Below, in pieces: positions 49,322-50,793 of a stretch of DNA of 64,000 bases. The notes beneath the pieces were generated by a model. The model ran no database searches. It was not told the DNA's origin and saw nothing but the letters and a program-made list of their open reading frames with translations. The stretch covers positions 558,001-622,000 of the forward strand of contig NZ_JAVDYC010000001.1 in the NCBI RefSeq assembly GCF_031458255.1, given 5' to 3'. The translations under genes were made by a program, and so were the position numbers. The stretch's first letter is position 1; every line of letters starts with the position of its first letter. The DNA comes from Catenuloplanes niger. GTDB taxonomy: Bacteria > Actinomycetota > Actinomycetes > Mycobacteriales > Micromonosporaceae.

Positions 49322-49340
49322 CGGTCTTGCCGCAAGCCCC
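49322..49340 (-). promoter_or_regulatory. rifamycin-associated element (RAE) upstream of rox
   Basis: CGGTCTTGCCGCAAGCCCC, on the other strand GGGGCTTGCGGCAAGACCG, is a 19-base inverted repeat with a one-base centre (7 of 9 arm positions pair). It matches, from memory, the RAE found upstream of rifamycin-inactivating genes in actinobacteria. It lies 40 bp before the rox start, with CAGAAT at about 49352 as a possible -10. Confidence 0.8.
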
Positions 49341-49380
49341 GGGGCGTCCCCCAGAATGGCTCCTGAACTGGGGGTTTGTC

Positions 49381-50793
49381 ATGATCGATGTGATCGTTGC
49401 CGGGGGTGGGCCGACCGGCATGATGCTGGCGGCGGAGCTGCGGCTGCACGGCGTGAACGTGGTGGTACTGGAGCGGGACGCGGAGCCGTCGCCGATCGTG
49501 CGGTCGCTCGGGCTGCACGCGCGCAGCATCGAGATCCTGGACCAACGCGGGATCCTGGACCGGTTCCTCGCGCACGGCACCCGGCACCCGCTCGGCGGGT
49601 TCTTCGCCGGCATCCGCAAGCCGGCGCCGGAACGGCTGGACAGCGCGCACGCGTACGTGCTCGGCATCCCGCAGCCGATCACCGACCGGCTGCTGACCGA
49701 GTGGGCCGCCTCGCTCGGCGCGCAGATCCGGCGCGGGTGCGAGGTACGCGGGCTCGCGCAGGACGACTCCGGGGTGGACGTGGAACTGGCCACCGGTGAG
49801 CGGTTGCGGGCACGGTTCGTGGCCGGCTGCGACGGTGGCCGCAGCACCGTGCGCAAGCTGCTCGGTGTCGGCTTCCCGGGCGAGCCGAGCCGGATCGACA
49901 CGCTCATCGGCGAGATGGAGGTCACCGCGTCGGCGGAGACGATCGCGGCCGCGAACGAGGAGGTGCGCCGGACGCAGCTGCGGTTCGGGCTGATGCCGCT
50001 GGCCGATGGCGGCTACCGGGTGGGCGTACCGGCCGCCGGCGTCTCCGCGTCCGCTCCGTCCTTCGAGGAGTTCACGGAGCAACTGCGGGCGGTCGCGGGT
50101 ACGGACTTCGGCGCGCACTCGCCGCGCTGGCTGTCCCGTTTCGGCGACGCGACCCGGCTGGCGGAACGGTACCGCACCGGGCGGGTGCTGCTGGCCGGCG
50201 ACGCCGCGCACGTCCACCCGCCGGCCGGTGGGCAGGGCCTCAACCTGGGCCTGCAGGACGCGCACAACCTGGGCTGGAAACTCGCGGCCACGATCCACGG
50301 ATGGGCGCCGGACGAGCTGCTGGACAGCTACCAGGCCGAGCGGCGGCCGGTCGCGGCGGACGTGCTGGACAACACGCGCGCGCAGATGACGCTGATGTCG
50401 CTGGAACCCGGGCCGCTGGCGGTACGCCGGCTGGTCACCGAGCTGATGGACTTCGAGGAGGTGAACCGCTTCCTGCTCGAGAAGATCACCGCGATCGGGG
50501 TGCGGTACGACTTCGGTTCGGCGGCGCCGCTGGTCGGCCGGCACCTGCCGGACACGCCGATGTCCGAGGGGCGGCTGTACGAGCGGTTGCGCGGCGGCCG
50601 CGGGCTGCTGGTCGACCGGACCGGGACGCTGTCCGTGACCGGGTGGACCGACCGGGTGGACCACGTCGTCGACGCGGCCGCCGACCTGCCCGCGCCCGCG
50701 GTGCTCCTGCGGCCGGACGGCCACGTCGCCTGGGCCGGCGACGACCAGCCCGGCCTGCGCGACTCGCTGACCCGCTGGTTCGGCGCCGGCTGA
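49381..50793 (+). CDS. rox: rifampin monooxygenase (Rox)
   Basis: 470 residues, the length of Rox. Group A flavoprotein: FAD motif [21 protein letters not shown], the DG fold [20 protein letters not shown] and GD motif [28 protein letters not shown]. Stretches such as [34 protein letters not shown] and [20 protein letters not shown] are close to the characterised rifampin monooxygenases, which hydroxylate the naphthoquinone and open the ansa ring, inactivating the drug. NADPH supplies electrons. GGGGG lies eight bases before the ATG. The element at 49322 predicts rifamycin-induced expression. Confidence 0.9.

Follow-up and report, generated by a model that had tools for sequence, protein, structure and literature searches.

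The 64,000-nucleotide stretch of the Catenuloplanes niger genome analyzed here (contig NZ_JAVDYC010000001.1, positions 558,001 to 622,000 of the forward strand; this whole stretch is referred to as the window, and all positions are counted from its first letter) contains a gene for a rifampin monooxygenase, rox, that is preceded by a palindromic rifamycin-associated element (RAE). The pattern of conservation around this element in related bacteria indicates that the RAE is probably the shared -35 center of two divergent promoters, one directed towards rox and the other pointing outward, away from it. A rox gene equipped with an RAE is of a known kind, and homology gives good support to the prediction that the gene belongs to the RAE regulon and confers resistance inducible by rifamycins; the new part is the two-way promoter block that surrounds the element.

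The palindrome, CGGTCTTGCCGCAAGCCCC in the plus-strand reading, occupies positions 49322–49340 and has its strict core, CTTGCCGCAAG, at 49326–49336. Counted by hand, it comprises two arms of 8 bases each, with 6 of the 8 positions pairing, around a 3-base center, and a gap of 40 bp (49341–49380) separates it from the rox ATG. An earlier note on this DNA had reported a 19-base inverted repeat 40 bp before rox (quoting the same 19-mer in its minus-strand reading), had taken it for an RAE and had placed it over the expected -35 region. The repeat and its distance from rox are borne out, and the overlap with a -35 fits at the level of sequence only, as TTGCCG-N19-CAGAAT (N19 denoting a spacing of 19 bases). 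The identification as an RAE is also supported: the sequence features are present, and of the remaining cores in the genome just one, that before helR, is flanked by -10 hexamers. Taken over the window by itself, the motif does not reach significance, the RAE pattern with up to 3 mismatches giving 2 hits (49322–49340 on both strands) where 0.59 are expected and 12 of 100 shuffled sequences reach 2. Genome-wide it is rare, the core CTTGCnGCAAG being found at three places in all 9.74 Mb (one contig), namely before rox, before helR and at one site elsewhere (L250), which is without a -10 hexamer at N19 on either side.

The gene behind the second core is identified as helR by the NF041254 (motor_HelR) profile, with 1160.7 bits against a cut-off of 750. 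The genome was also searched for rph and arr, which are RAE genes as well; for rph there was no match over the cut-off and four weak ones, and for arr no match. The scan for RAEs at other rifamycin genes that the earlier note had proposed has thus returned helR with a core, and rph and arr without a passing match. The RAE regulon known from actinobacteria comprises rgt, rph, arr, rox and helR. It shares with the window rox the core palindrome, the kinds of gene downstream and the overlap with the -35 region (PMC10719064), and for Streptomyces venezuelae the same review reports RAEs before this same pair of genes, rox and helR.

The rox gene itself (49381–50793, plus strand) encodes a 470-residue protein that is over the cut-off for the rif_monoox family (NF033145, 840.5 bits versus 800, profile positions 1–471 of 472) and aligns along its entire length with two rifampin monooxygenases of known structure (PDB 5kow and 5vqb; 707 and 686 bits, respectively). 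The binding fold for flavin adenine dinucleotide (FAD) of the group A hydroxylases is recognized in it (PF01494, 314.1 bits; PF21274, 66.9 bits), and motifs that we take to be of the FAD type can be read in the translation, so that the full-length Rox homologue with FAD motifs described in the earlier note holds up. Compared by family and structure-sequence matches, the window Rox shows nothing unusual relative to the solved enzymes, and it is predicted from the same matches to be an FAD-dependent enzyme that oxidizes rifamycins. There are two possible starts, a TTG at 49327 inside the RAE, given in the list of open reading frames (ORFs), and the ATG at 49381, which is favored by the family alignment.

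The evidence for a larger element comes from three sets of sites. In the first, consisting of the best 80 of 435 Rox relatives in named genomes, the exact core lies within 400 bp upstream of 67 genes. A profile of the flanks alone, from which the core was omitted, located the element before 7 of the other 13, with the core CTTGTGGCAAG (four genes) or its reverse complement CTTGCCACAAG (three genes); in these variant cores, found through the flanks alone, TTG and CAA are retained. The total is 74 of 80, and the composite was not found within 500 bp upstream of the remaining six homologues (L051, L080, L092, L094, L106 and L117). Across the 67 exact-core loci the information content stays high between about -41 and +34, counted from the center of the palindrome, is moderately raised out to about -67 and +55, and is low beyond, which delimits a composite block of about 75 bp (49290–49365 in the window, center 49331) as the putative two-way promoter. 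The earlier note's reading of an RAE before rox stands, and is at the same time incomplete, since the 19-mer is only the middle of this block.

On each side of the palindrome the block holds a -10-like hexamer at the same distance. The sense hexamer, CAGAAT (49352–49357, plus strand), lies 19 bp past the core TTGCCG, and the outward hexamer, TACGTT (49305–49310, minus strand; AACGTA on the plus strand), follows TTGCGG on its own strand at a spacing of 19 bp; allowing 7 bp from each -10, the expected starts are at about 49364 for the rox mRNA and about 49298 for the outward transcript. In the window the two hexamers are thus present at N19 on the two strands, as a divergent promoter demands, and the RAE copy before the genome's own helR has the same pair, CAGAAT and TACGTT. 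Among the exact-core rox homologues the sense side reads.A...T at N19 in 67 of 67 (CAGAAT or CACAAT in 59), and the outward strand reads TA...T at N19 in 67 of 67, while no other spacing from 10 to 39 gives this outward motif in more than 2 of the 67. With the looser.A...T there are also matches away from N19, in 32 of the 67 at N21 (sense) and in 45 of the 67 at N25 (outward), both inside the conserved block. The bases that are best kept on both strands are those most important to a promoter of the sigma-70 type.

The same arrangement is found before other classes of gene. The symmetric pattern GGNCTTGCNGCAAGNCC is present in 237 of 300 genomes of the window's family, with the backward-read pattern giving 0–2 hits per genome, mostly 0. 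From these, 70 sites were analyzed (75 distinct sites are listed and more exist), chosen by the symmetric core with neither -10 conditioned; the sense strand was then picked with the help of the sense -10, and the gene class was assigned from the ORF in that direction, by blastp to the genome's own Rox and HelR or through clusters named via one or two representatives. Classes were assigned at 65 of the 70 sites (helR 27, rph 21, rox 10, rgt 5, MFS 2), and at N19 these 65 read.A...T on the sense side without exception and TA...T on the outward side in 62, the remaining three having GACGAT. When ten representatives were compared with NCBIfam, Rph, both Arr and the genome's own HelR were over their cut-offs; two Rgt (560 and 516 versus 800 bits), two distant Rox-like proteins and one HelD shortened by the end of its locus were below, and the tenth is an MFS protein.

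A search of the phylum, in which only the sense -10 was fixed and the outward side was free to vary, gave matches in 41 of 396 genomes, at 55 distinct sites. Fifty of these form the third set (the genome's own helR, analyzed separately, and four others were left out), and counts were made on the 45 sites with an assigned gene, the window's own rox being dropped. Between -45 and -10 the only positions kept in at least 44 of the 45 sites are A-26 (45), T-22 (45) and A-21 (44), exactly the three fixed letters of the outward TA...T as seen from the opposite strand; the next best are C-17 (43), C-33 (42) and C-34 and C-27 (41 each). The outward TA...T at N19 is accordingly present at 44 of 45 sites. 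Four phylum loci have no assigned gene in the direction of the element, and in these the outward TA...T is absent (L143, L149, L162, with CACCTT, and L163, where an ORF on the other side of the element is 43% alike to HelR over 229 residues).

In addition to the two hexamers, many copies have a hairpin followed by a run of T that begins at the expected outward start (-33), with the sequence GGCAAGGAG-n-CTCCTTGCC-TTTGTTTT; compensated versions of the hairpin occur, for example with the arms GGCGAGGAG/CTCCTCGCC and GGCAGGGAG/CTCCCTGCC. By a hairpin-plus-T test that tolerates one mismatch and two G-T pairs, this putative terminator is found on the outward side of 48 of the 67 rox homologues (inward 1, shuffled flanks 2.95), 25 of the 70 family sites (inward 1, shuffled 2.15) and 17 of the 50 phylum sites (inward 1, shuffled 1.55). 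At least four T occur in the nine bases after strong hairpins at 65 of 74 outward and 10 of 74 inward positions. When arms were swapped among sites, none of 2000 permutations paired as well as the true arms in any of the three sets (n = 74, 65 and 44), and the strong pairings numbered 42, 16 and 16 against 23.5, 5.1 and 6.9 expected with swapped arms, relatedness being not fully controlled in this comparison. At the genome's own helR a terminator scan made two overlapping calls (0.6 expected), corresponding to GGAGGAAGGG-TTTTT-CCCTTTCTCC followed by CTTTTTG, and five helR loci in the window's genus have a T-rich terminator that is mostly unlike the rox type (judged by eye, the genome's own helR also by scan).

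Taken with the positions of the hexamers, these features suggest a mechanism in which the palindromic RAE would serve as a common -35 region, TTGCCG-N19-CAGAAT driving rox and TTGCGG-N19-TACGTT opposing it, with the outward promoter of many copies running directly into an intrinsic terminator and yielding a tiny dead-end RNA. There should be no room for two polymerases at once, given the common -35 and a distance of 66 bp between the expected starts, and we infer that both promoters fire, that each excludes the other and that rifamycin tips the balance. Without the drug the outward promoter would withhold RNA polymerase from the sense side, and with rifamycin the balance would shift to the sense promoter. 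That mutual exclusion of the two promoters is part of the mechanism is an assumption towards which we lean slightly, and on balance we favor, with a similar degree of reserve, the full proposal that rox is under RAE regulon control by exclusive divergent promoters tipped by rifamycin. For the tipping step, a regulator that reads the RAE, or some other non-linear step or memory effect, must be added to the scheme.

Several findings weigh against this reading. Both the -35 and the -10 sequences are far from consensus, with a spacing of 19, and a generic sigma-70 scan therefore finds no promoter at the genome's own rox or helR. The outward terminator is found in 90 of 187 sites overall and is therefore not universal; it is seen at none of the 5 arr sites by the hairpin-plus-T test, and its arms are themselves conserved, so that part of their pairing is inherited. 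A terminator scan at the window rox finds none, and none is seen by eye in two other rox copies of the genus. Here the two -10 hexamers are kept and the outward terminator is reduced to a remnant of the hairpin 5' arm (GGCGGGGAG, 49290–49298, minus strand), its pairing arm and T-run being absent, while the genome's own helR copy keeps all these parts. In a simple steady-state model with one pool of polymerase, blocking a fraction of the pool never raises the sense output (over 200000 random parameter sets the highest ratio was 1.0000, and the algebra gives the same result); shared-pool competition of this simple kind gives no induction, and a regulator or another step is therefore needed. Similarly, when the convergent helD promoters of B. 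subtilis were moved until the polymerases overlapped, induction was abolished (PMC12802891), and the known kinetics of dual promoters are therefore not simply transferable to the RAE. Finally, the G-run and C-run of the palindrome go beyond what a -35 requires, as fits a bound protein.

This last property is what would be expected if the RAE were an operator for a rifamycin-responsive regulator acting on a single sense promoter, its upstream half then belonging to the operator, or forming another binding site, instead of a promoter, an explanation that we regard as a tentative possibility. It is also considered in PMC10719064, a regulator reading the palindrome is supposed both there and in PMC12802891, and G-7 to G-9 are present at 45 of 45 phylum sites, a set picked by the core and the sense -10 and not by the G-run. 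The operator explanation would not, however, lead one to expect that the best-kept upstream bases form a -10 at the mirror-image distance, or that a compensated hairpin and T-run stand where the outward transcript should begin.

A different possibility dispenses with a regulator altogether. In its broadest form, RNA polymerase firing constantly from the dead-end divergent promoter of the RAE would be the rifamycin sensor of actinobacteria, and the whole RAE regulon would be switched, without a dedicated regulator, by which of the two mirror-image promoters is open to polymerase; this we think unlikely. The corresponding account of rox, in which the outward promoter is the sensor and a rifampicin-blocked polymerase halts outward firing and frees the sense promoter, much like the convergent Bacillus system, appears more doubtful still. 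In favor of this account, B. subtilis is established to have opposed promoters ahead of genes that respond to rifampicin (PMC12802891), and the regulator gene adjoining rox in the window is not a standing neighbor of the element: relatives of it lie at 3 of 80 rox loci and at none of the 70 family loci, no search for other regulators having been made. On the other side, the sites overlap, with starts 66 bp apart and a common -35, an overlap of the kind that abolished induction in B. subtilis, and simple competition at steady state cannot induce, so that a memory effect would be required.

It is very improbable that the conserved TATA block upstream is instead the -10 of a second sense promoter, in tandem with the first and with no outward promoter. 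Two sense promoters, P1 and P2, are described at mycobacterial helD (PMC10719064), and TATA at -22 to -19 is strong in the rox homologues; but the sense hexamer would read TATAnC, without the final T, the published P1 start, about 20 bp upstream of the RAE, is too distant for the block, and in the phylum set TATA decays (T at -20 in 34 and A at -19 in 33 of 45) while the outward TA...T holds. That the palindrome before rox arose by chance, as its lack of significance within the window by itself would allow, can be dismissed in view of its rarity in the genome, its placement at rox and helR and its presence in 74 of 80 homologues.

The proposed divergent promoters with a shared -35 differ from the closest known systems. 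The RAE regulon as published consists of the 19-bp palindrome and tandem sense promoters, and the mirror-image outward promoter and terminator are not mentioned in the excerpts of PMC10719064; nor were they found at RAEs in the available portions of the literature searched, including PMC10194278, PMC10719064, PMC8655204 and PMC12802891, although an earlier description in print is possible. The helD and pps genes of B. subtilis are likewise preceded by two opposed promoters, used as an alarm in the response to rifampicin (PMC12802891), but these are convergent and their polymerases must not overlap, whereas the putative RAE promoters are divergent, share the -35, start 66 bp apart and often lead into a terminator. 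The window rox, being divergent and overlapping, is thus not a convergent, non-overlapping dual promoter of the B. subtilis type, and PMC12802891 itself distinguishes the RAE from its own system. The bidirectional promoters of E. coli also present symmetric DNA that engages polymerase in two exclusive orientations, with a shared -10 and starts mostly 18 bp, also 10 or 23 bp, apart (PMC12825309), whereas the putative RAE promoters share the -35 and have a -10 of their own on each side.

A 2026 paper describes rifamycin sensing by the RAE as an unsettled matter (PMC12802891). Should the RAE prove to be the center of a two-way promoter, one branch of which is a dead end, the hunt for a regulator would take another form, and existing 5'-end data and simple reporters could be used to test the question; sensing of polymerase inhibitors by opposed promoters would then extend from Bacillus to actinobacteria, in a different geometry. 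For tracing genes that respond to rifamycin, the composite block also offers greater specificity than the 19-mer, as with the MFS exporter observed here. The gene for this DHA2-family protein, a candidate rifamycin exporter, has the composite at 4 of 30 orthologue loci in one genus (L219, identical to L172; L220; L224, identical to L017; and L232, identical to L020), with a clear outward hairpin at two of the four, in close relatives. We know of no MFS exporter listed among RAE genes.

The gene just upstream of rox (approximately 48385–49266, plus strand) encodes an XRE-type regulator with an MmyB-like ligand-binding domain (PF17765), and short near-tandem repeats, GATCGGCGCGACA and GGCGACTGTGTGAC, occur in the end of its ORF and in the gap to the RAE. 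The XRE gene is co-directional with rox, and outward transcription would therefore run antisense into its end. It was considered as a standing regulator of RAEs and rejected, relatives being found, in addition to the counts given above, at no phylum locus other than the window's own. A role of the outward promoter in serving a divergent gene was likewise rejected, the orientations of the nearest upstream ORF being near even: divergent versus co-directional, 33 versus 33 in the rox set (66 loci), 4 versus 3 at the seven variant-core loci, 33 versus 31 in the family set and 16 versus 26 in the phylum set, with the ORFs called approximately, from third-position GC, and one and two loci left without a call.

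Rfam, searched with five loci, assigns the outward RNA to no family; of its four hits three are tRNAs and one lies far below the gathering score. Pairing of the RAE with a downstream TGCCGCA was considered and dropped by eye, the center base showing no co-variation.

A few individual sites deserve mention. Two family sites, L021 and L183 (CTTGCTGCAAG), lack a -10 on either side; two others, L022 and L191, carry the full pair of -10s and no assigned gene, and L017, unassigned in the counts, was later identified as an MFS locus. In the phylum set, L159 (Rgt-like) and L168 (Rox-like) were recognized by eye in another frame and were counted as such. In distant families (L121, L125 and L128, of the HelD/HelR type; L127, L132, L150, L152 and L169, arr) the upstream TATA is often lost and the outward TA...T is retained (GATAAT in L121). 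At L211, from the window's genus, the composite stands before a frame that is Rph-like by eye, and at L191 it is followed, after 256 bp, by an ORF that is transposase-like by eye, possibly an insertion into an RAE-controlled gene.
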